From contig NZ_JABJVV010000003.1 in NCBI RefSeq assembly GCF_013155545.1, forward strand, positions 62,001 through 126,000: DNA of 64,000 bases. Reading direction: 5' to 3'. The notes beneath the pieces were generated by a model. That model saw nothing but the letters and a program-made list of their open reading frames with translations. It ran no database searches and was not told the origin of the DNA. The stretch comes from Caenimonas soli. Its GTDB lineage: Bacteria > Pseudomonadota > Gammaproteobacteria > Burkholderiales > Burkholderiaceae_C. The stretch's first letter is position 1. Each line of letters begins with the position of its first letter. Shown piece by piece: positions 4,507 to 62,431 of the stretch. The position numbers and the translations under genes are program-made.

Positions 4507-5994
4507 TCACGGGGACAGTTTCAGCGGCAGGCGATTTTTTTCGGTCCAGGCGGCGAAATCGCTCGGATACGCGGCGCGGTACCGTGCGGCGTGCCATAGC
4601 GCTTCTTCGTATTTCTGCGTCATCGTCAAAGCCTCGATCAACACTTCGATGACGCGCTGTTCGGGCGAAAAATGCAGCAGGTCGCGCGCGAGATTGACCA
4701 TATGCGGAGCATTCGCTGGAGTCAGCGGCGTGACGCTCAGCTCGGCAAACAGCACCTGGCTGCGGAAAAGCCATGAACCTTGCAATTTCGCGAGGGTGTC
4801 GTCGCGATAGTAGGCGCTGCGCTCCTCGTAGGGACGATAGATCTGGCCCACGCGGGAGTAGTCCCACAAGGCGTAAAGCACGCAGGCGGCGACCAGGGCG
4901 GCGGCGGGCAGCCGAACGGCCATTGCGGCCCGTATGGCCGAATCGCTCCTAAGCGGCAACAGGAACAACACCGCAAGCCCCGCCGCGATCTGGAACGGGC
5001 CATACCACAGGGGGTACTCGACCATGCTGTGCAGCAGGATGACGACCAGGATCATCCAGGCGAGTTGATGTTCCGGTTGCGTGGCCCGCCACGGCGCCGC
5101 GGCCACGGCTGCCCAGAAGAGACCGCCGCAGATGATGGCCGCAAGAGGGATTCCCAGTTCGACGGCCAGGTGCAAGGGCAGGTTGTGCGCGTTGTCCAGA
5201 AGTGCGCAAAAGCGCTCCCCCGGATAAAGCGTGGCGTAGTGCGCGTAGTCCAATTCCCCCCACCCCCAACCCAGCCAGGGTTTTTGAGCGATGAGGTGCA
5301 GCACGTTGCTCCAGAGGGCTCGCCGGCTCCAGCATCCCTCCTGCTGCGCCATGCGGGAGAACGCGTTCCCTGCGGCGATACCAAGGAAGCGCTCTAGCAA
5401 GATGGGCAGCACGACGGCGGCCAGCACGTACGCCACGAGGCCGAACAAAGCCGTCTTGAAAAGCCGGAGCTGGTGAGGCCCTTTCCAGGCGCCCGCCAAC
5501 ACCACCAACAGCAGGAGCTGGATGAATCCAACGCGAGAGATCGAGGCGGCGTTGCCGGCCACCAAGAGGACCAGGCCGAGATAGGACGCCGCGAGCGTGT
5601 ACTTTCCCGAGACCCCACGCATCCAGCGATCTCGCAGCCACCACAGCAGGGCTGCCACGCCGATATTGGTCAGGCTGGCGAAGTGATTGCGCTGGCGTAA
5701 GTTCGCGAAAGCCTCGCCCGGTTCCGCCACACTCATCCAGGGGCTGAAATAGTGGGCCAAGCCAAAGTATTGGCACAGGCCGATCACGCTGCTGAGGAGA
5801 GCGGCGCCGAGCCAGCCCAGCACAGCGGGCTTGACCCACCCCGGTTGAAAGCAGGCGATAAGGACGGCACAGCACAGCCAGCTCACCAGTAACGGCGCGG
5901 TCTGGGTGCTGGGCCCCGGGACGAAAGGATTAAGAGCCGGGAGCGCGATCGCGACGGCTGCGAGCAGCGCAAACCCGGGTTGGCGAAGAAGCAC
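4507..5994 (-). CDS. Wzy/PglL-type O-oligosaccharyltransferase, copy 2
   Basis: This 495-residue inner-membrane protein has about ten membrane segments and a large periplasmic loop with the motifs QKPWLGWGWGEL, DNAHNLPLHL and LLHSMVEYPLWYG. These match the Wzy_C/PglL ligase family that moves lipid-linked glycans onto pilins or O-antigen. The start is GTG at 5994, preceded by AGGGG at good spacing. It follows the first ligase by only 9 bases and shares its architecture, so the pair looks like an old duplication. The natural acceptors may be the pilins just upstream. Confidence 0.85.
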   Translation of the reverse strand: MLLRQPGFALLAAVAIALPALNPFVPGPSTQTAPLLVSWLCCAVLIACFQPGWVKPAVLGWLGAALLSSVIGLCQYFGLAHYFSPWMSVAEPGEAFANLRQRNHFASLTNIGVAALLWWLRDRWMRGVSGKYTLAASYLGLVLLVAGNAASISRVGFIQLLLLVVLAGAWKGPHQLRLFKTALFGLVAYVLAAVVLPILLERFLGIAAGNAFSRMAQQEGCWSRRALWSNVLHLIAQKPWLGWGWGELDYAHYATLYPGERFCALLDNAHNLPLHLAVELGIPLAAIICGGLFWAAVAAAPWRATQPEHQLAWMILVVILLHSMVEYPLWYGPFQIAAGLAVLFLLPLRSDSAIRAAMAVRLPAAALVAACVLYALWDYSRVGQIYRPYEERSAYYRDDTLAKLQGSWLFRSQVLFAELSVTPLTPANAPHMVNLARDLLHFSPEQRVIEVLIEALTMTQKYEEALWHAARYRAAYPSDFAAWTEKNRLPLKLSP

Positions 5995-6003
5995 AGGAAG
6001 CCC

Positions 6004-7785
6004 CTATTTGCCCAGCTGCGGCCATGGGCCCAACCTGGCTTGCCTCAGATCGGCGCATGCGCTGTTTTCCACCGTCGTGGGCCAGCGAATGTTCGCCAGT
6101 TGGGGCTGTTGCTTCCGGAAAGTCTGCATTTCCGAGATCAGCCGCCGGCGACCTTCCGTCGGCAGCACGATCATTGCCTTGGACATCCAGCAGCGAGCCT
6201 CAGCGGTGTGGCCGTTCAATGCAAGCAGGCGAATGAGCCTCGACATATTGGGGTAGGTGATCCAATGGGCGGTGACGTCGCGGGCCTGCTCCAGCGCTTG
6301 CGCTGACTGGCCCGCGGCGGGCTCCGTCAATCCGAACGCGAGCATCGACCGAAGTTGCGTCAAGACGATCACATCCGGTGGAGTCGGGGGAACGGGACTC
6401 CAGATCCGCGCCAGCTTCATGCGCACATCCACAGTGGAAGCCTCGGCCTCGAAGTAATCGTAGATGATCAGCGCCAGAAGCAGCGTCACGGCACCCAATA
6501 GCACCAACGCCGCATGGCGCGCGCCACGGCTCGCGGCGCCGAGATGCCAGATCTTCAACTCCGCAGATAGCGCGCCGGCGACAAGTCCCGCCGGCAAGAG
6601 GAAGTAGCCGTATTGCAGGGGAAGCTCGAGCATGGCGTGCAGCATCACGACGACCAATACCAGGAACAGCAGTACCTGGGCCGGCTCGCGAATGCGCCGT
6701 TGCGCCGTCCAAGCCCAGGCCAGCAGAGCCGCGGTGACAGCCAAGCCGGCCGGAAAGCCCGACCAGATGATGAGGTCCAGCGGAAGATTGTGCGCATGGG
6801 CAAACAGGACCGGAAAATCCGGGTGGTTTTCCGCGACGGCCAGATGTGCGGAGAGTACCTCGTTCCAGCCATAGCCGAGCCAGGGTCGCTGCGCAGCAGC
6901 ATCGAGCAGCATCCCCCAAACGGCAGGCCGCATTTCGCCCATGGTCCGCGTGGCAATCGATGTGGGGTCCGCCAGGAGCAAAGCTATGCTGGCCCAGTGA
7001 ATCGCCAGCAGCAGCAAGAAATAAATTGGGATCAAGGCCGATACGTAAACAGCGGCTTGGCGCTGCGGCAAAAGGGCCCGCCACCACCACGCGGCGGCCA
7101 CGATGGCGCACAGGCCAAGAAATCCCGTGCGCGACTGCGTGAAGGCCAGACCGAGCACGAGAAAAGCGGCGACGGCGAAGGCGAACGCGGGCCTGACATG
7201 GCGCTGGTAGGCGCTCCAGCCGCAAGCCAGTAATCCCCACAGCAGCAGGGTTGCCAACTGGTTGGGTTGGCCCAGGTTGGCGTAAGGCCGGCTTTGGGCG
7301 AGCCCGAAAACCCAGATGTCGAAGAAGTCGGCCTCGCTGGTCATCCCGAGCCATTGATAGATCTGAAGTCCCACGGACACCAGCGATGCGGCAAGGAAAG
7401 CGCCAAAAAGAATGTTGCCCATCCGGATCGGCCGCCAGGCCTGCCATTGCCGGCCGACGACCAGGGCGATCAGGAAACCAAGAAGGTAGGCGGTTGACAG
7501 CCAGGCTTGGCCGGCAAAGGGCAGGAGGCCCAGATGGAAATGGGCGAACGGCAGCACCGCGGCCAGTGCAACCAGCAGATCCAGGCCGGTTATCGCGAGC
7601 TTGCCGGTGTTCAGCAGCACTACGCAGCCTATGACTGCCAGCACGGCAGCCATCCAGGCATCCGAATGAAATTGGAGCCAGGGCTGGGTATGGTTGGGCA
7701 AAAGCCAGGCTGTGGCTATCAGCAGGGTGGCAAAGGCACACCACACCGGGGCAAGGGACTTGTCTTTGAAGTTAAGAAGCGTCAT
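6004..7785 (-). CDS. Wzy/PglL-type O-oligosaccharyltransferase, copy 1
   Basis: This protein of about 593 residues has roughly twelve membrane segments. The periplasmic loop carries QRPWLGYGWNEV and HAHNLPLDLIIWSG, followed by MLHAMLELPLQYG, the signature of PglL-type protein O-glycosylation ligases. A soluble C-terminal region (about residues 440-593) resembles Wzy_C_2. The start MTLLNFKDKS at 7785 was chosen because upstream codons run through the pilin terminator. It sits directly downstream of two pilin genes, which supports a role in pilin glycosylation. Confidence 0.85.
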   Translation of the reverse strand: MTLLNFKDKSLAPVWCAFATLLIATAWLLPNHTQPWLQFHSDAWMAAVLAVIGCVVLLNTGKLAITGLDLLVALAAVLPFAHFHLGLLPFAGQAWLSTAYLLGFLIALVVGRQWQAWRPIRMGNILFGAFLAASLVSVGLQIYQWLGMTSEADFFDIWVFGLAQSRPYANLGQPNQLATLLLWGLLACGWSAYQRHVRPAFAFAVAAFLVLGLAFTQSRTGFLGLCAIVAAAWWWRALLPQRQAAVYVSALIPIYFLLLLAIHWASIALLLADPTSIATRTMGEMRPAVWGMLLDAAAQRPWLGYGWNEVLSAHLAVAENHPDFPVLFAHAHNLPLDLIIWSGFPAGLAVTAALLAWAWTAQRRIREPAQVLLFLVLVVVMLHAMLELPLQYGYFLLPAGLVAGALSAELKIWHLGAASRGARHAALVLLGAVTLLLALIIYDYFEAEASTVDVRMKLARIWSPVPPTPPDVIVLTQLRSMLAFGLTEPAAGQSAQALEQARDVTAHWITYPNMSRLIRLLALNGHTAEARCWMSKAMIVLPTEGRRRLISEMQTFRKQQPQLANIRWPTTVENSACADLRQARLGPWPQLGK

Positions 7786-7802
7786 CCGAGGACCGGGGTG
7801 AG

Positions 7803-7837
7803 AAAAAAACAAAAAGGGCCCGGCAAACCGGGCCCTT
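7803..7837 (-). terminator. Rho-independent terminator of pilin gene 1
   Basis: A perfect 10-bp stem (7814-7823 with 7828-7837), rich in G and C, encloses a 4-base loop. On the minus strand it is followed by a T-rich tail running to 7803. It lies 19 bases past the pilin stop and separates the pilin from the ligase genes. Confidence 0.92.
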
Positions 7838-7855
7838 GTCACAAACGGATCGTGA

Positions 7856-8353
7856 TCAGGTCGTCTTGCACGAACCCGGCAGGTACTTGGCGGGCATCGG
7901 CTCGGTAGCCGCGGGGCCGCACTTCCATTCGGTGATGGTCTTCTGGCCGTCGGCGGTACCGTCCGCAGCAGCAGCGCCGATGTAGGGCTTCAGCGAAATG
8001 GCGCGGGCGCTGGAAGTGATGCTGCCGCCCAGGGCGCCTTCGCTGCCCGTGATGGTGATCACGCCGTTGGCGTCGGAACCGCCGGAAGCGACCATCTTGG
8101 TCGGCGTGATCGTGCAGGTGCCGGGCAGAATTGAGGCGATGTTCGCAGTGGTCGCGTTGGTATACGCATCCGTGATGGCCGTGCGGCAGGTCGACGCCGC
8201 CAGGACGACTTCGGACACGCGAGCGCGCACCGTGTAGTCTTGATAAGCGGGCAGCGCAACGGCGGCCAGAATACCGATGATCGCAACCACGATCATCAAT
8301 TCGATCAGGGTGAAACCCTTTTGCACTTGGCGCTTGATAGTTTGCAGCTTCAT
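7856..8353 (-). CDS. Type IV pilin, copy 1 (PilA-like)
   Basis: This 165-residue type IVa prepilin has a 13-residue leader ending in KG, cleaved before F14, then [12 protein letters not shown] with the conserved glutamate E18 (E5 of the mature pilin). The C-terminus has a cysteine pair ([10 protein letters not shown]...GSC) forming the usual D-region disulfide. It differs from copy 2 at about nine residues. GGAGG precedes the start. It has its own sigma-54 promoter and terminator. Confidence 0.95.
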
Positions 8354-8395: not shown

Positions 8396-8410
8396 GCAAC
8401 TGCTGTGCCA
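8396..8410 (-). promoter_or_regulatory. Sigma-54 promoter of pilin gene 1
   Basis: The minus strand reads TGGCACAGCAGTTGC, an exact match to the -24/-12 consensus TGGCAC-N5-TTGC. It lies 43 bases upstream of the pilin ATG, with transcription expected to start about 12 bases past the -12 GC. In many bacteria pilA is transcribed by sigma-54 with the activator PilR; pilR is not in this window. Confidence 0.9.
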
Positions 8411-8533: not shown

Positions 8534-8562
8534 AACAAAAGGGCCCGGCAAGCCGGGCCCTT
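8534..8562 (-). terminator. Rho-independent terminator of pilin gene 2
   Basis: A perfect 10-bp stem (8539-8548 with 8553-8562) with a CAAG loop is nearly identical to the terminator of copy 1. The following T tract on the minus strand is shorter, so some read-through is possible. Confidence 0.82.
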
Positions 8563-9112: not shown

Positions 9113-9127
9113 GCAAACGCTGTGCCA
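9113..9127 (-). promoter_or_regulatory. Sigma-54 promoter of pilin gene 2
   Basis: The minus strand reads TGGCACAGCGTTTGC, an exact TGGCAC-N5-TTGC match. It lies 36 bases upstream of the start codon. Its position and flanks resemble the promoter of pilin 1, so the duplication carried the whole promoter. Confidence 0.9.
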
Positions 9128-9246: not shown

Positions 9247-11655
9247 CTACTTGATGCAGACCGATCGCACCTGCTTCAAGTCGGTCAGCCCCAGCATGAT
9301 CTTTTCCATGCCGTCCATCTTCAGGGTGCGCATGCCGGTTTCGACCGAGGCCGAGAAAAGCTCGGCCACCCGGGCCCGCTCCTGGATCAGCCGCTTGATG
9401 TGGTCGTCGGCGATCAGCAGTTCATGCAGGCCGATCCGGCCCTTGTAGCCAGTCTTGTTGCACTTGACGCAGCCCACGGCCTTGTAGAACTTCAGCCGTC
9501 CGTCCTGGCCATAGGCCTTGACCCAGCTGTCGTAGAGCTTCTTGGCCTCGCCGGCGTAATCGGATTTCCAGGCCGACGAATGGCGCAGCTCTTCGGCGTA
9601 TTCCGCGACGAACAGCTTGACCTCGTCGACGTCCGGCGCGTACTCCTCCTTGCAGTCGCACAGTTTTTTCGCCAGGCGCTGCGCGAGGATGCCGAGCAGC
9701 GCGTCGGCGAAGTTGAACGGGTCCATGCCCATGTCCAGCAGCCGGGTGATCGACTCGGGCGCGGAGTTCGTGTGCAGGGTGGAGAACACGAGGTGGCCGG
9801 TGAGCGAAGCCTCCACGCCCATCGAGACGGTCTCCTTGTCCCGCGATTCGCCGACCATGATGATGTCGGGATCGGCGCGCAGGAACGCCCGCATGATCAG
9901 GGCGAAGTCGATCCCCGCCTTCCGGTTGATCTGGACCTGGCGCAAACCCTTTTGCGTGATTTCGACCGGGTCTTCGGCGGTCCAGATCTTGGTGTCGGGT
10001 GTGTTCAGGAACTTCAGGATCGAGTGCAGCGTGGTGGTCTTGCCCGAACCGGTGGGGCCGCACACGTAGAACAGGCCGTAAGGCTTGCTCACGGTCTTTT
10101 CCAGGCGCTCCTTGTTGTGCGGCGTCAGCCCGAGCTTTTCCAGCGGGATGGGCTCGCCCGCCGCCAGGATACGCATCACCACGTCTTCGACCCCGCCGGC
10201 CGAGGGGATGGTGGCCACCCGCAACTCGATGTCCAGCGGACCGAACTTCTTGAACTTGATCTTGCCGTCCTGCGGCTTGCGCTTCTCGGAGATGTCCAGG
10301 TCGCACATGATCTTCAACCGGGTCACCATGGCCTGGCGGAAATGCGAAGGGACTTCGACATACGGCTGCAGCGTGCCGTCGATGCGGAACCGGATACCGG
10401 TCTTGGCCTTGCCGGGCAAGGGCTCGATGTGGATGTCCGAGACCTTCTGGTTGTAGGCGTCGATGATGACCTTGTTGACGAACTTCACCAGTTCGTTGTC
10501 GGCGGCGGCGGACTCCAGCCCCGTGTCGTCACCGCCCTCGTCGTCCATTGGCGCGCTCAGGTCGGCCAGCAGCTCGTCGATCGATGCGCCGTCCTCGGCG
10601 CCGTACAACTGGGCCAGCGTTTCCTCGAATTCGGTCTGGGTCGTCACCCGGTAGGAGAACTTGGCAAAGCGCGGGAACACCTGGGGCACGATGCGCGATC
10701 CGCGCACGGCTTCCGGGTCCATGCACATGACCACCAGGCCCTCGGGCGATTCTTCCAGCGGAAGCCAGCCCTGTTCCTCGACGAAGTCGCGCTTGAGCGG
10801 GCCTTGCAGTGCCTCCATCCGTATGCGGCCTGCGTCGAAAGGCTCGTACGGCACGCCGAAGAACTTGGCGAGCGACGGCCCGATCTGCGACGGGCGAATC
10901 TGGAAGCTCGCCATGAGCATGTGCTCGACCGGCTTTGCTTCCTCGCGGGCTTGCTGGATGCACAGCTGGAGTTCGTCGGCGGTCATCACGCCGGCCGCAA
11001 TCAGGCCATCGTATTTGGTCGCCCTGACCCGCTGGCCGTCGTCGGCCCGCTGCATGCGTTGCCGGATCGCCGTGGCCAGCGTCCTGCACAACTGGGTGGC
11101 GCCCTCGACCTCGAGCTCGCCGAAAGGCTGGTCGCTCTTGTTGTTGATGACCTGCAGCACGCCGTGCAGGTTGTGACCGTCCAGGATAGGCAGCACCATC
11201 ATCTGTTTGGTGCGGTAGCCGGAGCGCTTGTCCACTTCCTTCAGGAAGCTCAGGGTGGGGTGGATTCGCTTGAGCGCCTCGTCGTCGTAGACGTCGGCGA
11301 TGTTGATCAGCTGCTTGCTGTAGGCCGCGTAGCCCGCGATGCTCTGGGCGCTGATGGGAAGCTTGAGGTCCTTGCTGGTGTTGAGGCCGGTCTTGACCTT
11401 CGACACGATGGACGTGCGGTCTTCGTTGATGGCATAGAGCGTGAGCCGGTCGGCGTTGAACAGCTTGCAGATGTCCTGGCTGGCCTCCAGCATGATCTGG
11501 TCGATGTTCTCGGTCTCGTGGATCCGGGTGCTGACCTGCTGCAGCTGGCGGTAGAACAGGGCCTCGAACGAGACGCCCCGCTTTTCCGGGGGCAATTGCT
11601 GCGAATCGAAGAAGGCCTGCTCGCTGTCCCTTTCGGGCCTGAGCACCGCACTCAT
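9247..11655 (-). CDS. GAF-domain GspE/PulE/PilB-type ATPase
   Basis: This 802-residue protein has a GAF sensory domain (about residues 30-195), a GspE/MshE-type N-terminal domain (about 215-370) and a secretion ATPase domain (about 400-800). The ATPase domain has Walker A GPTGSGKTT near residue 531, the Walker B region DPDIIMVGESRD and a zinc site made of LCDC and CVKCNKTGYKGR. Such ATPases power pilus extension or type II secretion. The added GAF domain suggests direct control by a small ligand, possibly a cyclic nucleotide made by the neighbours. GGAG precedes the ATG. It lies just upstream of the pilins. Confidence 0.9.
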   Translation of the reverse strand: MSAVLRPERDSEQAFFDSQQLPPEKRGVSFEALFYRQLQQVSTRIHETENIDQIMLEASQDICKLFNADRLTLYAINEDRTSIVSKVKTGLNTSKDLKLPISAQSIAGYAAYSKQLINIADVYDDEALKRIHPTLSFLKEVDKRSGYRTKQMMVLPILDGHNLHGVLQVINNKSDQPFGELEVEGATQLCRTLATAIRQRMQRADDGQRVRATKYDGLIAAGVMTADELQLCIQQAREEAKPVEHMLMASFQIRPSQIGPSLAKFFGVPYEPFDAGRIRMEALQGPLKRDFVEEQGWLPLEESPEGLVVMCMDPEAVRGSRIVPQVFPRFAKFSYRVTTQTEFEETLAQLYGAEDGASIDELLADLSAPMDDEGGDDTGLESAAADNELVKFVNKVIIDAYNQKVSDIHIEPLPGKAKTGIRFRIDGTLQPYVEVPSHFRQAMVTRLKIMCDLDISEKRKPQDGKIKFKKFGPLDIELRVATIPSAGGVEDVVMRILAAGEPIPLEKLGLTPHNKERLEKTVSKPYGLFYVCGPTGSGKTTTLHSILKFLNTPDTKIWTAEDPVEITQKGLRQVQINRKAGIDFALIMRAFLRADPDIIMVGESRDKETVSMGVEASLTGHLVFSTLHTNSAPESITRLLDMGMDPFNFADALLGILAQRLAKKLCDCKEEYAPDVDEVKLFVAEYAEELRHSSAWKSDYAGEAKKLYDSWVKAYGQDGRLKFYKAVGCVKCNKTGYKGRIGLHELLIADDHIKRLIQERARVAELFSASVETGMRTLKMDGMEKIMLGLTDLKQVRSVCIK

Positions 11656-11714
11656 TGGGAGAACTCCGCGCTGCGCGCTGCGGTATTCGCCTTGGGAACG
11701 GCCCGGCGGCTCAT
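11652..11714 (-). CDS. Possible 20-codon leader ORF coupled to the ATPase gene
   Basis: An ATG preceded by AGGGG at 6-base spacing opens a 20-codon frame (MSRRAVPKANTAARSAEFSQ). Its TGA overlaps the ATPase start as ATGA. It fills almost the whole gap between the phosphodiesterase stop and the ATPase. The ATPase has its own GGAG, so this may be chance. Confidence 0.3.
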   Translation of the reverse strand: MSRRAVPKANTAARSAEFSQ

Positions 11715-11724
11715 GCGCCGCCCC

Positions 11725-12516
11725 TCATAGCTCGAACTCCTGGCCCGCGCGCAGCCACCGGATGTCGTGGGCGACGTTCGGGCCGAACGGCTGCGTCTGG
11801 TCGAACTTCTGGATCTCGGTCATGATCAGCTCGGTTTCGGCCGGCTTGGTGTGGGTGATGAAGATGGGAAAGGATTTTCCCTTGTCGATGCAATCCAGCT
11901 CCTCGGCCAGCGCATGGGGCGACAAGTGCAGGCTGCGCTTGGCCAGATCCTTTTCGCGGTTGCTGAAGGCGGTTTCGATCACCAGCGCCGCCACGTTCAG
12001 CTGGTTGATGCGCCGCCAGAAGGCCGGATTGCGCTCGGTGTCCCCGGTGAATACCCAGCAGCCCTTGCCCGAGGTCACGGCGTAGCCCACGGCGGGCACG
12101 GTGTGGACCGCTGGCAGGACTTCGATCAGCTTGCCGGCGATGTCCAGCGTCTGGCCGACCTGGATTTCATGAAAGCTGATGAAGGGCGCTTCGGGCGTGG
12201 GGATGCGACTGAAGTCCGGCCAGATCACGTTGTTGAAGACATGCGCCTTCAGGGCCGCGATGGTGCCGGGCAGCGCATAGACCTTGACCGGCTTGGTCAG
12301 CTGCGAGGCGATGGCGTCGATCATCAGCGGCAAGGCGGCCACGTGGTCCAGGTGCGAATGCGTCAACAGCACATGGCCGATGGCCTTCATCTCGGGCAGC
12401 GTCAGGTCGCCCACGCCGGTGCCGGCGTCGACCAGCACGTCCCCGTCGATCAGGAACGACGTGGTTCGACAGTCCTTCGCGATCGCTCCGGAACAGCCCA
12501 GCACGCGCACCTTCAT
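11725..12516 (-). CDS. MBL-fold 3',5'-cyclic-nucleotide phosphodiesterase
   Basis: This 263-residue protein has the metallo-beta-lactamase metal motif THSHLDH (H53, H55, D57, H58) and later ligands in FTGDTE and FITHTKP. The overall pattern (MKVRVLGCSGAIAKDCRTTSFLID) is that of cyclic nucleotide phosphodiesterases of the class II/MBL type. The start is 9 bases past the stop of the CHASE2 adenylate cyclase gene, so synthesis and breakdown of the same messenger are probably encoded together. The substrate is inferred, not shown. Confidence 0.85.
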   Translation of the reverse strand: MKVRVLGCSGAIAKDCRTTSFLIDGDVLVDAGTGVGDLTLPEMKAIGHVLLTHSHLDHVAALPLMIDAIASQLTKPVKVYALPGTIAALKAHVFNNVIWPDFSRIPTPEAPFISFHEIQVGQTLDIAGKLIEVLPAVHTVPAVGYAVTSGKGCWVFTGDTERNPAFWRRINQLNVAALVIETAFSNREKDLAKRSLHLSPHALAEELDCIDKGKSFPIFITHTKPAETELIMTEIQKFDQTQPFGPNVAHDIRWLRAGQEFEL

Positions 12517-12525
12517 CAGGATCCC

Positions 12526-14772
12526 TTACTTTGTTTCGAAATTGGTTGCGCCGTCCCACCCCGGGTCGAAAGGGAGCAACCTCATCGAGGCTACACGCTC
12601 TGAATACAATTCGTAAAGGTATTTTTTGGCATTCATGCGCTGCAGATTCAGCATCAGCACGTCGCATTGCTCCCAGTCCTGGGCCCGGTAGGCCTTCAGG
12701 AAGGCGGCCCAGGTCTTGAGTTCGTCCTGGGAAGCCTTCTCCAGCCGGTTGGCGGGTGCCACCGGCCAGAAGATGGCCACAGCCTGCTCCTTGCCCTTGA
12801 CCCGGACCCGGTCCAGTTCCTGCCAGGCAAATTCGGGCGCCAGCTTGCGGGTGCTCTCGCTGACCACGATGTCCACGCCGTAGATCTTGGACAGGCCTTC
12901 CAGGCGCGAACCCAGGTTGACCGAGTCACCGATCACCGTATAGGCGCGCCGGATGTCCGAGCCCATGTCGCCCACGCACATGGTGCCGGTGTTCAGGCCG
13001 ATGCCGATGCCGATCTCGGGGATGCCCTGGGCCCGGTGTTCGTCGTTGATCTTGCGCACGGCGCCGGCCATCTCCATCGCCGTTTTCACGGCCATGTGCG
13101 CGTGGTTGGGAATGTCCACGGGCGCGCCCCAGAAGGCCATGACGCAATCGCCCATGTACTTGTCGATGGTGCCCTTGTTGGCACGAATCAGGTCCGTCAG
13201 GCGGCTGAACACGAAATTCAGCAGTTCCTGCAGCTTGGTCGGCTCCATCTGTTCCGACATCTTGGTGAAGCCCCGCATATCGCAGAACATCACGGTGAGC
13301 TCCTTGCTCGCGGCCTTCATGCTGTAGCTGGCGGCGTCCTTGACCATCTCGTCCACCAGCTCCGGCGGCACGTAGGTGCCGAACAGGTTGGCCAGCTCGC
13401 GCTTGCCCCGGCTTTCCACGAAGTAGCCGTAACTCATGTTCAGGGCGAATGCGGTCAATGCCATGACGAGGGCAGCTGCCAGCGGCATGACCAGCCCGGC
13501 CCCCAGGTAGAGGAAGAAATTCAGCGCCACCACGGCCGCGATGACGACCAGGCTGAGCAAGACTGCACGCGGCGCGGACAGCAGCGGCAAGGCGAATGCC
13601 AGGGTCAGCCCGGCCAGCGCCAGTATCGCGACGTCGTAGCCGAGGGCATAGTCAGGCTTCACCGCGATGCGGTCGTCCATCAAGCCGGAGATCAGGTTGG
13701 CGTGGGTTTCCACCCCTGCGTAGGCCTCGCCTACCGGCGTGACCCGGATGTCCAGCAGGCCGGGCGCCGTGGTCCCGACCAGCACGATCTTGCCCTTCAG
13801 GCTTTCCGGCGCCAGCCGCTTGGCCAATACATCGGCTGCCGACACATAGCGGTACGAGCCGCCGCTCACCCCGCCCGGGCCGCGAAAAGGCACCAGCGTG
13901 GTCACCCAGTCGGCCACCGGCACCGACAACCTCTTGTCACCCTGGCGCAGCTGGATGCCGTCCAGGCCGTGGTATCGGGACAGGAAGCGCTCGGGCGGGA
14001 ATTGCGGCTCCACGGACGGCATGCCCGTCAGCGCCCGGAACATCGCCAGCGCCAGCGACTCGTAGTACTGATCCTTGTATTCGGCCAGCAGCGGCACCGA
14101 GCGCACCACCCCGTCCGGGTCCACGATCGAATTGAAGAAGCCGCCCAGCGGCGCAGCCTTGGCGAGCTGCTCGATGTTGGAGCCGTAACTGTTCCAGCTG
14201 GTGAATCGGATGGGCCGTCCGCGCAGGTTTTCCTTTTGCATCACCGGCTCGGGCAGCAGGCCGGAGGTGCGGCCGTCCTTGTCGTTGGTCAGGTAGTAAC
14301 CCATGACCACGGGGCGCTTTTGCAGCGACCTGGCGAACGCGGCGTCGTAGTCGAGGCTGGCCTGCAGCTGGCCGAGTTTCTCGGTGAAGCCGGGCTGGTC
14401 CTTCAGTTCCGCCTGGGCCAGTTGGCGCAGGCGCTTGAGGCCCGAGCTGTCATCGGGCTCGGCGAAAACGATGTCGAAACCGACCAGGGCGATCTTCTGC
14501 CGGTCGAACAGCTCGTCGACCAGTTCGGCCATCCGGTTGCGCCCCCAGGGCCAGCGTCCGACCTCGGCCAGGCTCTTTTCGTCGAGGTCCACGATGACGA
14601 TGCGCTCGTCCATCGTCCGGGGCATCGTCGCCCGCAGACGCGCGTCGTAGATGATGTCGTCCAGTCGCTGCAGCACCCCGATGGGCAGCACTCCGCTGGC
14701 ATGCAGCAGGGCAAACAGCACGGGGATCAGCGTGACCGCGATGCGGGACCAATGTTTCAGCAGCAAGCCCAT
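12526..14772 (-). CDS. CHASE2-domain class III adenylate cyclase
   Basis: This 748-residue protein has an N-terminal membrane anchor and an extracytoplasmic CHASE2 sensor (about residues 30-340). Three membrane helices follow (about 370-450), then a class III cyclase domain (about 480-660). Metal-binding aspartates are in VMFCDMRGF (near D498) and KYMGDCVMAF, and the transition-state residues are in GDSVNLGSR. The K and T positions (DKYMGD, AYTVIGD) favour ATP over GTP. It follows the FHA gene and precedes the phosphodiesterase gene. Confidence 0.9.
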   Translation of the reverse strand: MGLLLKHWSRIAVTLIPVLFALLHASGVLPIGVLQRLDDIIYDARLRATMPRTMDERIVIVDLDEKSLAEVGRWPWGRNRMAELVDELFDRQKIALVGFDIVFAEPDDSSGLKRLRQLAQAELKDQPGFTEKLGQLQASLDYDAAFARSLQKRPVVMGYYLTNDKDGRTSGLLPEPVMQKENLRGRPIRFTSWNSYGSNIEQLAKAAPLGGFFNSIVDPDGVVRSVPLLAEYKDQYYESLALAMFRALTGMPSVEPQFPPERFLSRYHGLDGIQLRQGDKRLSVPVADWVTTLVPFRGPGGVSGGSYRYVSAADVLAKRLAPESLKGKIVLVGTTAPGLLDIRVTPVGEAYAGVETHANLISGLMDDRIAVKPDYALGYDVAILALAGLTLAFALPLLSAPRAVLLSLVVIAAVVALNFFLYLGAGLVMPLAAALVMALTAFALNMSYGYFVESRGKRELANLFGTYVPPELVDEMVKDAASYSMKAASKELTVMFCDMRGFTKMSEQMEPTKLQELLNFVFSRLTDLIRANKGTIDKYMGDCVMAFWGAPVDIPNHAHMAVKTAMEMAGAVRKINDEHRAQGIPEIGIGIGLNTGTMCVGDMGSDIRRAYTVIGDSVNLGSRLEGLSKIYGVDIVVSESTRKLAPEFAWQELDRVRVKGKEQAVAIFWPVAPANRLEKASQDELKTWAAFLKAYRAQDWEQCDVLMLNLQRMNAKKYLYELYSERVASMRLLPFDPGWDGATNFETK

Positions 14773-14800
14773 AAGGGGCTGGAACCTCGCTTATCGTGAT

Positions 14801-14820
14801 CCCGGCGCGTGCGCGCCGGG
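14801..14820. repeat. Inverted repeat between FHA and cyclase genes
   Basis: Two 9-base arms (CCCGGCGCG and CGCGCCGGG) flank TG in the 52-base gap. There is no following T tract in either direction, so it is not a standard terminator. It could stabilise or process the operon mRNA, or bind a protein. Confidence 0.5.
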
Positions 14821-14824
14821 ACAA

Positions 14825-15487
14825 TCAGGCCTGGACAAACTGCATCTGCGTGCCGGCCAGCTCGAGAAGGTCGCCGTTCTTCAAGGTCACCGGCTCGGCG
14901 CTGATGGCCGCGCCGTTGAGGGTTGGCTTGTTGCCGCCTTCGACATGCGCCACCACGAAGCCGTGGGGCCGCTTGGTGATCGCCGCCACGGCGACGCCGG
15001 GCTTGCCGATGGTGGTCACGACTTTGACCAGCGGCACCTCGCGCCCGGCAGCCGCGCCGGACAGCACCTTGATGGTGGCTTTGACGCCCGCCAGGTCGAC
15101 GGCGGCCGTCGGCGCCGCTCCCGCGTCGGCGCGGGCGGGCGGCGGGGGCATGACGGCCCCGGCCTTGAGGATCATGGTCTTTTCGAAGGTCGGACCGGCG
15201 ACCTCGTTGATGTACTTGATCTTGTACTTGCCGATTTCGACCGTGTCGCTGTTCTGCAACAGCTGCTTCTTCACGGCCTTGCCATTGACGTAGGTGCCGT
15301 TGGTGCTATTGAGGTCCTCAAGGTAGACCTCGTTGCCGGTCATTTGGAGGACGGCGTGTTCTCCGCTGACGGCAAGGTTGTCGATCACGATGTCGTTGTA
15401 GGGCCGGCGACCCAACGTCGTACGGTCCTTGGTCAACTGCACTTCCTTGATGACGACACCGTCGATCGAAACGATCATTTTCGGCAT
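14825..15487 (-). CDS. FHA-domain protein (one canonical and one degenerate FHA)
   Basis: This 220-residue cytoplasmic protein has a canonical FHA domain (residues 1-93) with the phosphothreonine-binding residues in TTLGRRPYNDI, SGEH and NSTNGTYVNG. A second FHA-like fold (about 130-218) has lost the usual arginine and serine. The linker between them contains FEKTMILKAG (T104), closely matching FEKTAVIRPG near the C-terminus of the kinase two genes upstream. FHA proteins read Ser/Thr kinase signals, so it is probably the effector of that kinase. AGGAG precedes the start. Confidence 0.9.
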   Translation of the reverse strand: MPKMIVSIDGVVIKEVQLTKDRTTLGRRPYNDIVIDNLAVSGEHAVLQMTGNEVYLEDLNSTNGTYVNGKAVKKQLLQNSDTVEIGKYKIKYINEVAGPTFEKTMILKAGAVMPPPPARADAGAAPTAAVDLAGVKATIKVLSGAAAGREVPLVKVVTTIGKPGVAVAAITKRPHGFVVAHVEGGNKPTLNGAAISAEPVTLKNGDLLELAGTQMQFVQA

Positions 15488-15537
15488 GGTCGGCTCCTGT
15501 CTGTATAACTCATTATCTGGAAACTAATACCAAAGAC

Positions 15538-16344
15538 TCATCCCAGCCATCTGGACAACAAGCCGCGCTTTTTCGAATCCGTGCTGACCTGGGCCAACAA
15601 CACCGAGATGTTGTCGCGGCCTCCGTTGGCGTTGGCGGCGTCTATCAGCTGCGCCGCTTTCTGCTCCAGTGGCACGTCGCCGCCCAGAATCTTCGCGATG
15701 CCATCATCATCCACCATGTCCGACAGGCCGTCGGAGCACATCATGTAGATATCGCCCGGTTCGACCCTGTGTTCGTTGACTTCCAACAACACCGCGTCCT
15801 CGACACCCAGCGCCCGCGTCACCAGGTTCTTGTTGCTGGAGGTGGCCGCCTGCTCCGGCGTGATCAGCCCCGCGTCCAGCTGCTCCTGCAGCAGGGAATG
15901 GTCCTTGGTGATCTGGGCGAGATCGCCCGCGCGCAGGCGATAGCAGCGCGAATCGCCAATATGTCCCAGCATGAGCCGCTCGTCCTGGAACACCCCCAGC
16001 ACCAGCGTCGTTCCCATCCCGCTGTACTGCGGGTTGGAGTTGGCGGCGTTGAAGATGGAGCGGTTGGCATTGTCCACGCAGATTTCCATCGCGCGGCGCA
16101 CCTCGCGGGCGTTCGCATGACGGCCGGCCTGCGACAACCAGCGGCCCAACTCGGACTTGATGAAGGTCGTGGCCATGCCGCTGGCGATTTCGCCCGCGTT
16201 ATAGCCACCCATGCCGTCGGCCAGGACTCCCAGGCGGGTCGCCTCGTCCAAGGCGATCGAATCCTCGTTGTTCTCGCGCGCGAGACCCGGGTCGGTGCGT
16301 GTGCAAAACTCGTAGTTCATAAGTGCCGGGTCAAGCTTCCACAT
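15538..16344 (-). CDS. PP2C-type Ser/Thr protein phosphatase
   Basis: This protein of about 268 residues has PP2C metal-site motifs: ENNEDS, VLADGMGGYNAGE, GHIGDSRCYRL, CSDGLSDMV and GGRDNIS. It should remove phosphate from serine and threonine and so oppose the adjacent CHASE2 kinase. The ATG at 16344 overlaps the end of the kinase gene by 14 bases. A second start, MNYEF at 16320, is equally plausible because the domain begins there. Confidence 0.92.
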   Translation of the reverse strand: MWKLDPALMNYEFCTRTDPGLARENNEDSIALDEATRLGVLADGMGGYNAGEIASGMATTFIKSELGRWLSQAGRHANAREVRRAMEICVDNANRSIFNAANSNPQYSGMGTTLVLGVFQDERLMLGHIGDSRCYRLRAGDLAQITKDHSLLQEQLDAGLITPEQAATSSNKNLVTRALGVEDAVLLEVNEHRVEPGDIYMMCSDGLSDMVDDDGIAKILGGDVPLEQKAAQLIDAANANGGRDNISVLLAQVSTDSKKRGLLSRWLG

Positions 16345-19078
16345 CGGTTCCGCCCCCAGATGCAGGGGAGCCAGGCGCCCCCGGCCTGATCACCGCGGTT
16401 TTTTCGAAGACGCCGGTGTCGCCGCCCGCGCTTTGTTGGGTCGCATCATAGCCGGGCGAAGCAGCCGCAGGCATCGCAGCGGCGGCCACAGTCGCCTCGA
16501 ACGATGCGCCAGCCTTCGGCACCGCAGCCGGGGCCACCGCCGTCTGCGTGGGCGCCACGCCCGACAGCTCGCCGAGGACCGAGCGCAGGTCGGCCGCGAA
16601 CTGGTCACCATTTTGATAGCGGGTTTCCGAACGCTTGGAAAGCGAAAGCGCCACCACGTTGGCCAGGCGCTCGGAGATGTCCTTGCGAATGACGCGGATG
16701 TCCGGGGCCTCTTCCTGGGCGATCTTGTACATCAGCTCGGCCATCGAGTCGCCGCGGAAAGGCAGCACGCCCGTCAACATCTGGAACAGCATAACGCCCA
16801 GCGAATAGAGGTCCGAGCGCCCGTCGACTTTCTTGCCGGCGATCTGTTCGGGCGACATGAAGCTGGGCGTGCCCAGCACCAGCCCGGTCTTGGTCTTGCT
16901 CGAGTCGGTGATGCGCGCGATGCCGAAGTCGGTCACCTTGACGGTATCGCTGTCGAGCTCGTACATGATGTTGGCCGGCTTGATGTCCCGGTGCACCACG
17001 TTCTGGCGGTGGGCGTAGGCGAGCGCCTCGGCGACGCGCGCCACGATGGACAGCACCTTGGGCATGGGCAGCAGCTGGCCGTCCTTGCAGAAGGCCACCA
17101 GGTCCTTGCCCTTGAGGAATTCCATCGCGATGTAGGCCAGGTCGTGCTCCTCGCCGGCATCGAAGATGGTCACGATGTTCTGGTGCTGCAGCCGGCCGGC
17201 GGTCTCGGCTTCGCGGAAGAACCGCTCGCGCGCATCGGTCAGTTCCTCGCCTTCGAACTCCTGCGACAGCGCCATCGTCTTGATCGCCACCACGCGGCCG
17301 ATCTTGGGATCCTTGCCGAGATAGACCACGCCCATCGCACCCTTGCCCAGTTCCTTTTCGACCTGGTAGCGGCCCAGCATGGGTTTTTCGACGGCGCCGC
17401 CATCCAGCAGCATGGTCCCGCCGGGGTGGGCACCGCCGCCGCCGAGGATGACGGTTTCCGACAGGTTCTTGGCGCGATTGAGCTTGGACTGCAGGTCCTT
17501 GAAGTCCTTGTTCCAGGCGGCCATGTGCTCGTACACCGCCTGCGCCTTGTTGAACTGGCGCTTGCGCTCGAAATCCAGCGCCAGGTTGTACATGTTGTCC
17601 ATGATCGCATCGCTCATGGGCACGCGGCGGAAGCGGTCGAAGGCCGCATCCAGCTGGCCCTGCCCCTGCAATGCCAGGCCCATCATGCGGTTGGTTTCGG
17701 CCGACTCGTCGTCGGACTTGAGCTTGCCGGCCTCGGTGACCAGGAAGCGCTTGGTCGTCAGCGCCAGGTGGCCGATCACCAGCAGCGCCGCGGGCAACAC
17801 GAATTTCAGCCAGACCGAGGCGCTGGAGAGCAGCACGAACTCGCTGCCGATCAGCAGGGCGAAAAGTCCCAGCGTGACGGCAGCGCCCATGCCGGCCGAC
17901 AGCCGCGGAAGCAGCGCAATCAGGTAGGCCGCCACCAGCAGGAACACGGCCAACCCGGCCCAGCCGCCCCAGGCCGGCTGCACGATGAAGTGCTCGCCCA
18001 GGATGCTGGAGGTGATATGCGCCATCATCTCGGCGGGCGACAGGCCGGCATAGCCGGGCACGGCGAAGGTGGTGCCTACGCCGTTGGCCGTGGCGCCGAT
18101 GAGGACGATCTTGTCGGTGTACTTGGCGGCCGGTATCTTGCCGCTCAGGACGTCGTAGAACGAATCGACGGCGAAGGCCGGCTTGCCGTCCTTGCCCTTG
18201 TAGAACTGCGGCAGCATGCGGGCCATGTCGTCGGTCTTGACGCGCAGCTTGCCGATCTGTACCGACTCGCCGTCATTCAACTTGATGTCGCCCGGGCCCA
18301 GGTTCAGGCTGCGCGCCGCCGCCAGCAGCGCCATCGAGGGCACGGCCTTGCCGTAATAGTTGACCAGGAGCGGGTCGTCGCGCACCGAGCCGTCCACGTC
18401 ATGAAGCTGGTTCAGGTGGCCGACGCCGCCGGCCGCGTTGCCCAGCAGCTCGAACGGATACTGGCCGCGCACCGCCGGCATCGAGAAGCCGTTTTTCTCG
18501 TCCACTGCGCTTTTAAGAACATACGCCGGCAACGGCCGGTCGGCCTTGCCCTGCGGCTCACCCAGTTCGTAGATCGAGGGCAGCAGCACGTTGCCCGCGC
18601 GCGCCATGCTGGCGGCCAGCTTGGCATCGGTGTCCAGGGTCTGTTCGGCCTCGGCGATCACCTTGCCCAGTTGCTCGGCCGAGCCGCCCTGGCCCTCCGT
18701 CACCGGCCCCAGGGCTTCCTTGATCTTGCGGATGAAGACCAGGCCACGATCGGTCTGGGGCTCGAAGAAGAACGTGGTGTGAACGATGGTCTTGGCCTTG
18801 GCCGCCGACAACTGGTCGATCAGTTGCGCATGCACGTCGCGCGGCCAGGGCCAGCGCCCGATGTTGGCGATGCTCTGGTCGTCGATGGCAATGACGGCGA
18901 TCCGGTCGGACGGCTGGCGCCCGCTGCTGGTGCTGCCGAAGTCATAAAAGCGGCGCTCCAGCGTGCCGATGAGGTCCGTCGCCTGATTCAGGATGACGAC
19001 GGTCATCACGATCAGTACAGCGACGAACCAATCCGCGCGCCAGAACTGGCCACGTTTTGCCGATGAAGATGTGCTCAC
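16331..19078 (-). CDS. CHASE2-domain transmembrane Ser/Thr protein kinase
   Basis: This 915-residue protein has an N-terminal membrane helix, an extracytoplasmic CHASE2 domain (about 40-350), further membrane helices (about 370-450), a short helical TPR-like region (about 470-540) and a eukaryote-like kinase domain (about 562-830). The kinase has LGKGAMGVVYLG, VAIKTM, HRDIKPANI (D698) and DFGIA. The low-complexity tail ends with FEKTAVIRPG (T894), and SETVIL (T542) precedes the kinase domain; both are candidate phosphoacceptors. The start is GTG with GAGGGGCGGGG upstream. It heads the signalling operon. Confidence 0.93.
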   Translation of the reverse strand: MSTSSSAKRGQFWRADWFVAVLIVMTVVILNQATDLIGTLERRFYDFGSTSSGRQPSDRIAVIAIDDQSIANIGRWPWPRDVHAQLIDQLSAAKAKTIVHTTFFFEPQTDRGLVFIRKIKEALGPVTEGQGGSAEQLGKVIAEAEQTLDTDAKLAASMARAGNVLLPSIYELGEPQGKADRPLPAYVLKSAVDEKNGFSMPAVRGQYPFELLGNAAGGVGHLNQLHDVDGSVRDDPLLVNYYGKAVPSMALLAAARSLNLGPGDIKLNDGESVQIGKLRVKTDDMARMLPQFYKGKDGKPAFAVDSFYDVLSGKIPAAKYTDKIVLIGATANGVGTTFAVPGYAGLSPAEMMAHITSSILGEHFIVQPAWGGWAGLAVFLLVAAYLIALLPRLSAGMGAAVTLGLFALLIGSEFVLLSSASVWLKFVLPAALLVIGHLALTTKRFLVTEAGKLKSDDESAETNRMMGLALQGQGQLDAAFDRFRRVPMSDAIMDNMYNLALDFERKRQFNKAQAVYEHMAAWNKDFKDLQSKLNRAKNLSETVILGGGGAHPGGTMLLDGGAVEKPMLGRYQVEKELGKGAMGVVYLGKDPKIGRVVAIKTMALSQEFEGEELTDARERFFREAETAGRLQHQNIVTIFDAGEEHDLAYIAMEFLKGKDLVAFCKDGQLLPMPKVLSIVARVAEALAYAHRQNVVHRDIKPANIMYELDSDTVKVTDFGIARITDSSKTKTGLVLGTPSFMSPEQIAGKKVDGRSDLYSLGVMLFQMLTGVLPFRGDSMAELMYKIAQEEAPDIRVIRKDISERLANVVALSLSKRSETRYQNGDQFAADLRSVLGELSGVAPTQTAVAPAAVPKAGASFEATVAAAAMPAAASPGYDATQQSAGGDTGVFEKTAVIRPGAPGSPASGGGTDVEA

Positions 19079-61840: not shown

Positions 61841-62317
61841 ATGAAAATCGAAAAAGACACCGTGGTGACCCTGCGCTACAAGGTCGCCGACGCCAACGGC
61901 AAACTCATCGAGGAAAGCAAGGACCCGATGGTCTACCTCCATGGGGGTTACGAGAACACCCTGCCCAAGATCGAGGCCGCGCTGGAGGGGCGCGAGTCCG
62001 GCTTCGAAGTGACGCTGCAGCTCAAGCCCGAAGACGCGTTCGGCGTGCGCGACGAATCGCTGGTGCGCACCATCCCCAAGAAGGAATTCCCGCCCGGCGT
62101 GAAGGTCGGCGGCCAGCTGGAGGGCCACACCGACGAGGGCCATCCGCATGTCTTCCACGTGATGAAGATCAAGGGCGACACCGTGCATCTCGACGGCAAC
62201 CATCCGCTGGCGGGCAAGGAGCTGCGCTTCGCCATCAAGGTGACGGGTGTGCGCGCGGCCAGCGAGGAAGAGATCGCGCATCGCCACGTGCATGGCGCGC
62301 ACGGGCATCACCACTGA
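61841..62317 (+). CDS. FKBP-type peptidyl-prolyl isomerase (SlyD-like)
   Basis: This 158-residue isomerase has the SlyD pattern: TVVTLRYKVADANGKLIEES, LHGGYENTLPKIEAALEG, an insert-in-flap domain (about 70-125) and the closing strand RFAIKVTGVRAA. The tail is histidine-rich (HRHVHGAHGHHH) and could bind nickel or other metal, as in SlyD. AAAATCGAGCC precedes the start without a strong ribosome site. Confidence 0.92.
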   Translation: MKIEKDTVVTLRYKVADANGKLIEESKDPMVYLHGGYENTLPKIEAALEGRESGFEVTLQLKPEDAFGVRDESLVRTIPKKEFPPGVKVGGQLEGHTDEGHPHVFHVMKIKGDTVHLDGNHPLAGKELRFAIKVTGVRAASEEEIAHRHVHGAHGHHH

Positions 62318-62358
62318 GGCCGGGCGGCGATTGTCCTGCGCATAGGCCGGTGCGTCCC

Positions 62359-62386
62359 GCCCGCCGGCCTTTAGGGCCGGGCGGGC
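62359..62386. terminator. GC-rich hairpin downstream of the FKBP gene
   Basis: A stem of 7 plus 4 base pairs with one bulge and a 5-base loop lies 41 bases past the FKBP stop. No T tract follows, so it is a weak or factor-dependent terminator at best. Confidence 0.35.
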
Positions 62387-62431
62387 GACCCCATATCAAG
62401 GGATCGTCCCTTTTTGAACAGGAGCACCCCG

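Follow-up and report, generated by a model that had tools for sequence, protein, structure and literature searches.

The window analyzed here, a 64-kb stretch of contig NZ_JABJVV010000003.1 of Caenimonas soli (contig positions 62,001 to 126,000; all coordinates are window-based), contains neighboring genes for a CHASE2 Ser/Thr kinase, a PP2C phosphatase, an FHA protein, a CHASE2 class III nucleotide cyclase, an MBL-fold putative phosphodiesterase and an ATPase that joins a GAF domain to a PilB/GspE-type motor core (the GAF-ATPase), with two type IV pilins behind it (Table 1). This cluster is an old, modular control set around an unusual pilus extension motor. With considerable confidence, comparative sequence analyses point to the GAF-ATPase as a type IVa extension motor that is probably able to replace PilB. 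Genome comparisons lend the motor role good support, and we infer, for good reasons given below, that cyclic AMP (cAMP) and phosphorylation may both serve as its inputs.

The GAF-ATPase is not a canonical PilB, TfpB or GspE. It scored 460.9, 385.8 and 433.7 bits against the curated models of PilB (TIGR02538), TfpB (NF053534) and GspE (TIGR02533), whose cut-offs are 675.65, 850 and 630.25 bits, respectively, and in a quick tree, which came with a warning of long branches, the GAF-ATPases formed a clade separate from all three families. These cut-offs and the tree rule out the three canonical identities. The Walker A, Asp box and Walker B motifs of the GAF-ATPase were found in 76 of 76 relatives and the strict pattern of the His box in 52 of them. 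The C. soli genome also encodes its own PilB, TfpB and GspE; the canonical PilB sits directly before pilC, and the GAF-ATPase lies outside the pilBCD operon. It should be noted that the TfpB of C. soli (L091; 890.3 bits) is found near a KaiC-like gene. MshEN domains that bind cyclic di-GMP (c-di-GMP) carry R-L-G within a 24-residue motif; at this place the MshEN-like part of the GAF-ATPases reads KYDG-like, with Y215 and D216 nearly invariant, and c-di-GMP was rejected as the ligand of this part.

At E 1e-30, a profile covering the GAF domain and N-domain matched 153 of 399 genomes from the order and, from the phylum, 41 of 398. PilO and PilB were then sought in 40 of the 153 GAF-positive genomes, taken by list order and completeness, and in 40 of the 246 GAF-negative genomes, i.e., those absent from the list of profile-search positives (10 from the same family as C. 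soli and another 30 taken by handle number, passing over one incomplete genome). PilO was present in all 40 genomes with the GAF-ATPase vs. 30 of the 40 without it (Fisher's exact test, 0.001). A canonical PilB over the cut-off was found in 21 of the 40 genomes with the GAF-ATPase (14/25 and 6/14, plus C. soli), compared to 29 of the 30 PilO-bearing genomes without it (Fisher's exact test, 3.3e-5; 0.006 at the family level). By family code, PilB was absent throughout in 10 of 23 GAF-positive families, present in 12 and mixed in one, and it was absent in one of 19 GAF-negative families.

All 19 GAF-positive genomes without PilB retain pilC and pilD. Replacement of PilB by the GAF-ATPase would explain the frequent absence of pilB from such genomes despite the presence of pilC and pilD. 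In 16 of the 19, no PilB-like gene was found in front of pilC (only 0.7 kb is visible there in G144). In G066 and G111, the pilB position before pilC is occupied by a GAF-less ATPase (L179 and L185, respectively) whose core nests in the GAF-ATPase clade, and in G095, which has a GAF-ATPase, the last third of a pilB remains before pilC (L183). Among the control genomes, pilB was directly before pilC in five of six, and near pilC on the other strand in the sixth (G074). The single-contig genome G045 has one further PilB/GspE-type match at E 1e-60, which belongs to a cluster that also encodes a separate F protein and a secretin. Together with the pilC operons that lack pilB, G045 provides the strongest indication of an ability of the GAF-ATPase to drive type IVa pili.

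Some observations weigh against replacement. G078 has neither PilB nor the GAF-ATPase and shares its genus code with G122, which bears the GAF-ATPase, and in some genomes a diverged PilB that falls short of the cut-off may have been miscounted as absent (a 633-bit match exists in G099, but not before pilC). The ATPase might also serve a secretion or pseudopilus system and merely lie near pilins, in line with the own PilB, TfpB and GspE of C. soli and with the finding that, of 63 relatives, only 29 have a pilin signature on the ATPase strand in the first 1 kb after the ATPase, and 35 in the first 2.5 kb. However, PilB is missing almost only where the GAF-ATPase is present, and two genomes have a core of the GAF-ATPase clade in the place of pilB; we consider a secretion role very unlikely and retain that of a pilus extension motor.

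The relatives compared were the best-scoring 80 of at least 587 confirmed stretches, so that close relatives are over-represented; the nearest named locus among these 80 is that of a Ramlibacter metagenome-assembled genome (L066; 92% over the ATPase). Gene presence was scored by tblastn (E 1e-8) with the window proteins in the 58 loci resolved at both ends, and the other 22, cut by contig ends, were omitted. The order sucC-sucD-TerC-kinase-PP2C-FHA-cyclase-MBL-ATPase recurs in the relatives. The possibility, raised in a first-pass annotation of this stretch, that the gene set is scattered in relatives did not materialize, as 33 of the 58 loci keep all six genes. Partial sets consist of PP2C-FHA-ATPase (11 loci), kinase-PP2C-FHA-ATPase (7), PP2C-FHA-MBL-ATPase (3) or other combinations (4). 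Chance neighborhood is ruled out by this conserved gene order, which, with losses and additions, also recurs across the taxonomic order. The same annotation's treatment of the six genes as one unit did not hold, given that the kinase and the cAMP genes were lost separately: FHA was found in 58 loci, PP2C in 56, the kinase in 42 (it is absent in 16), MBL in 37 and the cyclase in 35, with cyclase and MBL both kept in 33 and both absent in 19. Thus, a single motor is surrounded by two modules, one made up of kinase-PP2C-FHA and the other of cyclase-MBL. Against a strict pairing of the cAMP genes, MBL occurs without the cyclase in four loci and the cyclase without MBL in two.

Eleven wider loci of the order contained MBL in nine cases, FHA and PP2C in seven, the cyclase in four, the kinase in three and a GAF-HD gene in seven. 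In more distant loci, a gene with cNMP_binding and rhodanese domains lies between MBL and the ATPase (L072, L075 and L079; 3/3 scanned), and a GAF+HD gene follows the ATPase (L075, L079 and L088; 3/3 scanned). In addition, a GAF-HD gene and a gene for a CHASE2 cyclase lie close to a GAF-ATPase relative of about 42% in another class of the phylum (L139), which suggests a deep association.

The FHA protein was first annotated as a double-FHA protein. One canonical domain (FHA1) is called by Pfam; the second is a degenerate FHA-like repeat, read from the sequence without a Pfam FHA call, that is well conserved within the FHA family. Between the two, the motif FEKTM was found in 42 of 43 kinase-bearing loci (the window included) and in three of 16 kinase-less ones (Fisher's exact test, 1.8e-9, uncorrected for kinship; four short FHA pieces omitted). 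Among 594 columns conserved in kinase-bearing loci (87 of FHA, 94 of PP2C and 413 of the ATPase), the three most closely tied to kinase loss were T104, M105 and K103 of FHA, and the fourth was G56 of PP2C. Thr104 of FEKTM is therefore a likely phosphosite on this comparative evidence. The FHA1 pocket residues R27, S41, G42, H44 and N63 were invariant in 43 of 43 aligned proteins, those of kinase-less loci included. As for the kinase itself, 35 of the 43 sequences compared, that of the window included, have SETVI/ML ahead of the catalytic domain, and a strict [FY][ED][KRQ]T is present in the tail of 17 of 43, or 11 of the 21 with tails of at least 40 aa. Autophosphorylated Thr sites outside the kinase domain of PknG are reported to recruit the FHA substrate GarA/OdhI (PMC8546545), and the FHA domain of Bdellovibrio DgcB is reported to bind its own tail (PMC6733907). 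The docking logic proposed here is modeled on these precedents, and a kinase-FHA switch acting through Thr104 seems to us fairly probable.

Several points weigh against such a switch. On the tree, the kinase trait needs seven changes, five of them forced by starred branches, and tree-corrected pairs agreed in two to four of five (200 pairings); they were never opposite, but the sign test was not significant (p 0.125–0.5). One locus (L034) has the kinase without FEKTM; of the three kinase-less loci that retain FEKTM, the genome of L031 has a 44%-identical kinase elsewhere, and those of L037 and L050 only one of about 32%. FEKTM is also not alone in its association, as G56 of PP2C follows the presence of the kinase as well (p 4.4e-6), and S247 of PP2C tracks the cyclase more strongly (8.0e-8) than FHA T104 does (8.0e-7); all these column-association p values owe something to clustering on the tree. 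FHA1 and PP2C persist in loci without the kinase, where another kinase or another role would thus be needed.

A kinase-linked phosphosite in the ATPase itself was also sought among the columns and rejected, given that the best ATPase column (p 6e-5) is a Lys. The earlier proposal that the kinase acts on the motor is supported in that a kinase-linked Thr motif exists, but its place is the linker of the FHA protein rather than the ATPase. The absence of an ATPase column that strongly tracks the kinase would also be expected if kinase, PP2C and FHA acted on some other target, such as pilin genes, glycosylation or another envelope machine, and their location were incidental. The loss of the kinase from 16 loci in which the ATPase stays, and the service of FHA pathways of like make-up in type VI secretion of other bacteria, as described in PMC3953482, agree with this alternative. 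Nevertheless, FHA accompanies the ATPase in all 58 resolved loci, the tightest link in that set, and is kept in seven of the 11 wider loci, and we regard a target other than the motor as unlikely. The motor thus remains the favored target of the FHA protein.

The GAF domain has CyaB2 (1YKD) as its best PDB match (E 2.2e-26). The cAMP contacts of CyaB2 are given (PMC4411481) as Arg291, Thr293, Ile308, Asp356 and Asn359, which map to R70, T72, V87, D142 and S145 of the window ATPase. R70, T72 and D142 were kept in all rows with letters at these places, comprising 48 with the cyclase, 24 without it and three to four whose cyclase status is unknown (five rows, L064, L069, L075, L081 and L087, are omitted from the alignment). 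In the wider GAF set, in which some genomes appear twice and two rows (L132 and L158) were misread or cut, R is present in 35 of 35 readable rows and T in 30, with S in the rest. Among 12 GAF domains of the C. soli genome read by eye, one has the Arg/Thr/Asp trio. These results bear out the earlier suggestion that the GAF domain is of a type that could read a cyclic nucleotide.

The MBL protein, earlier labeled a phosphodiesterase, is placed nearest to the class II cyclic-nucleotide phosphodiesterases by profile and structure matches, in agreement with that label. It passes the PDEase_II model PF02112 (51.0 bits vs. a cut-off of 23.7), its single PDB match at E 1e-6 is yeast PDE1 (4ojv; 4.9e-8 over 60 residues), and a THxHxDH-type motif was found in 55 of 55 MBL proteins. 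Its score against the NCBIfam model of cyclic nucleotide-degrading phosphodiesterases, NF041851, was below the cut-off (28.4 vs. 400 bits).

On balance, cAMP appears somewhat more probable as the ligand of the GAF domain than not. Several features speak against it. The NKFDE motif is incomplete, with N, K and F mostly kept and, in the window, E at the place of D and V at that of E; the equivalent of CyaB2 N359 is S or T in the GAF-ATPase family; and a divergent ATPase (L087) has lost R and T despite the presence of a cyclase. The pocket is equally conserved in the 24 rows without the cyclase. The pocket decay after cyclase loss that would be expected if the neighboring cyclase were the sole source of cAMP was not seen, so that either this cyclase is not the sole possible source or cAMP is not the ligand. 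In the latter case, the GAF-ATPase would be a pilus motor whose GAF domain binds another ligand or only dimerizes, and the cyclase and MBL would form a separate circuit (e.g., in transcription) and be neighbors by history. The unchanged pocket and incomplete NKFDE fit this alternative, as does the separate cNMP-binding protein of more distant loci, which could be the cAMP receptor there. However, the domain, whose best PDB match is CyaB2, retains the Asp as well as the Arg and Thr that contact adenine, and MBL adjoins the ATPase in nine of the 11 wider loci, five of which have no neighboring cyclase. Furthermore, 22 of the 23 genomes with a cyclase-less locus have a class III cyclase elsewhere, which in five genomes is a CHASE2 cyclase with 51–55% catalytic identity to that of the window. 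In the genus of G045, at least one class III cyclase was found in 10 of 10 genomes, and G045 and G333 keep MBL beside the ATPase. We judge a ligand other than cAMP, or mere dimerization, to be rather unlikely and continue with cAMP as the candidate ligand.

We propose the following mechanism. The CHASE2 kinase would autophosphorylate Thr residues beside its kinase domain, on which FHA1 would dock; the kinase would then phosphorylate Thr104 in the FHA linker, and phosphorylated Thr104 would fold back into FHA1 and so alter the partners of the FHA protein, most likely the ATPase, until PP2C reset the switch. In parallel, the CHASE2 cyclase would produce cAMP and the MBL protein would degrade it near the motor, and the GAF domain would sense cAMP and gate the ATPase hexamer. 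In relatives without a neighboring cyclase, cAMP would be supplied by another cyclase of the cell. We lean slightly toward this model as a whole, i.e., a type IVa extension motor of its own clade, beside or replacing PilB, with two membrane-sensed control modules. That both cAMP and phosphorylation act on this motor is, in our estimate, evenly balanced. Of the joint control of an extension motor proposed in the first-pass annotation, the conserved cluster around a type IVa-like motor stands, but none of the columns examined ties the ATPase itself to phosphorylation. More tentatively, and with somewhat less than even confidence, a new type IVa motor lineage may have displaced PilB in several families of the order, gated directly by cAMP through its GAF domain and with its recruitment set by the FHA phospho-switch.

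Table 1. Positions of genes, domains and sites in the 64-kb window.
Feature	Position	Strand	Remarks
CHASE2 Ser/Thr kinase, 915 aa	16331..19078	-	Pfam CHASE2 3.7e-50 (residues 25-383), Pkinase 2.1e-54 (domain 571-820)
Kinase Thr542, SETVIL motif just before kinase domain	17453..17455	-	Putative docking phosphosite
Kinase Thr894, FEKT motif in C-terminal tail	16397..16399	-	Putative docking phosphosite
PP2C phosphatase, Stp1 type, 268 aa	15538..16344	-	NCBIfam NF033484 248.1 bits, cut-off 230
FHA protein, 220 aa (canonical FHA1, linker, degenerate FHA-like repeat)	14825..15487	-	Pfam FHA 3.8e-24
FEKTM linker motif of FHA protein, residues 101-105	15173..15187	-	Thr104 (15176-15178), putative kinase target
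CHASE2 class III nucleotide cyclase, 748 aa	12526..14772	-	Pfam CHASE2 9.9e-56, Guanylate_cyc 3.1e-26
MBL-fold putative class II cyclic-nucleotide phosphodiesterase, 263 aa	11725..12516	-	Pfam Lactamase_B_2 1.1e-15, PDEase_II 1.5e-13
GAF-ATPase, 802 aa (GAF, MshEN-like N-domain, PilB/GspE-type motor core)	9247..11655	-	Pfam GAF+MshEN+T2SSE
GAF domain of ATPase, residues 51-197	11065..11505	-	Pfam GAF 2.2e-11
Motor core of ATPase, T2SSE, residues 385-796	9268..10503	-	Pfam 1.5e-112
Sigma54-like site before pilin 1, TGGCACAGCGTTTGC	9113..9127	-	Exact TGGCAC-N5-TTGC match
Type IV pilin 1, 165 aa	8580..9077	-	GFTLIE pilin N-terminus
Sigma54-like site before pilin 2, TGGCACAGCAGTTGC	8396..8410	-	Exact TGGCAC-N5-TTGC match
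Type IV pilin 2, 165 aa, near-copy of pilin 1	7856..8353	-	TIGR02532 39.4 bits, cut-off 16.3

As first annotated, the six genes are adjacent on the minus strand (9247–19078), with gaps of at most 69 bases and the domains recognized by Pfam. The kinase and PP2C genes overlap by 14 bases, and the remaining gaps are 50, 52, 9 and 69 bases in gene order, which suits a single operon. The motifs sought in the kinase, PP2C, cyclase and MBL proteins of the window were found, including VAIK, HRDIKPAN and DFG in the kinase and FCDMRGF, IDKYMGD and YTVIGDSVN in the cyclase, whose Lys/Thr pair would predict adenylate specificity. The same patterns missed some rows in the relatives (e.g., 17 of 55 for TGDT of MBL and 17 of 50 for the third motif of the cyclase).

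The first-pass annotation placed the pilins directly after the ATPase. They do start 169 bases past its stop, but they have predicted promoters of their own, and such proximity is confined to a part of the relatives, as described above. The two sigma54-type matches are the only ones in the 64 kb, where 0.34 are expected (at least two occurred in five of 100 shuffles), and terminator-like hairpins lie behind the pilins (8539–8562 and 7814–7837). Given these sites and hairpins, the pilins are probably transcribed separately from the six genes. A sigma54-like site precedes the pilin in eight of 34 relatives vs. none of 78 control stretches and is thus not general. Downstream of the pilins are two large membrane proteins (4507–5994 and 6004–7842) that are possibly pilin glycosylation enzymes; the former matches weakly a model of the IctB/O-antigen-ligase type. 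Elsewhere in the window, a tRNA call by ARAGORN (62335–62423, anticodon tta) is probably false, as Rfam gives no family.

The GAF-ATPase resembles PilB (TIGR02538) in its motor core fold, its Walker A, Asp box and Walker B motifs and its apparent role beside PilC, PilD and PilO, and differs from PilB in its extra GAF domain, separate clade, score below the cut-off and place outside the pilBCD operon. In Acinetobacter, PilB and TfpB are reported as two motors in a review of pilus motors (PMC11656802), and the GAF-ATPase is comparable to the TfpB of Acinetobacter baylyi described there in being a second, phylogenetically distinct extension ATPase in a PilB-bearing genome; unlike TfpB, it scores below the TfpB cut-off, and C. 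soli has a separate TfpB. In the passages searched, this one review names c-di-GMP as a direct ligand of pilus extension ATPases, has cAMP act on transcription through Vfr and contains 0 occurrences of GAF. As in MshE and PilB with a c-di-GMP-binding MshEN, a nucleotide messenger is proposed here to act directly on an extension motor; the differences are the KYDG-like sequence in place of R-L-G and the added GAF domain. With the GAF domain of CyaB2 (1YKD), the GAF-ATPase shares the equivalents of Arg291, Thr293 and Asp356, although it has a single GAF domain joined to a motor, Ser or Thr in place of N359 and an incomplete NKFDE.

The kinase and FHA proteins have their closest parallels in PknG-GarA/OdhI, which, according to PMC8546545, likewise combines kinase Thr sites beside the kinase domain with an FHA substrate whose own Thr lies outside the FHA fold. 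The FHA domain is of the canonical phospho-Thr-binding kind as in GarA/OdhI, and the link of the Thr to the kinase rests here on their co-loss. In contrast to PknG-GarA/OdhI, FEKTM is located in a linker instead of an N-terminal ETTS, the kinase is a membrane CHASE2 kinase, and the proposed target is a pilus motor. PpkA-PppA-Fha of type VI secretion, as described in PMC3953482, also comprises a Ser/Thr kinase, a PP2C phosphatase and an FHA protein that steer an envelope machine; the cluster described here differs in sitting beside a pilus motor. No paper on this six-gene cluster was found in the open-access literature, with subscription journals not covered. If the proposed model is true, a motor with a CyaB2-like GAF domain beside a cyclase, a phosphodiesterase and a kinase-FHA pair would have direct cAMP and phosphorylation input and would be the first extension motor to combine the role of a cAMP receptor with that of a client of a Ser/Thr kinase pathway. 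Because PilB appears to have been replaced, this question of control can be addressed in a species with one candidate motor.

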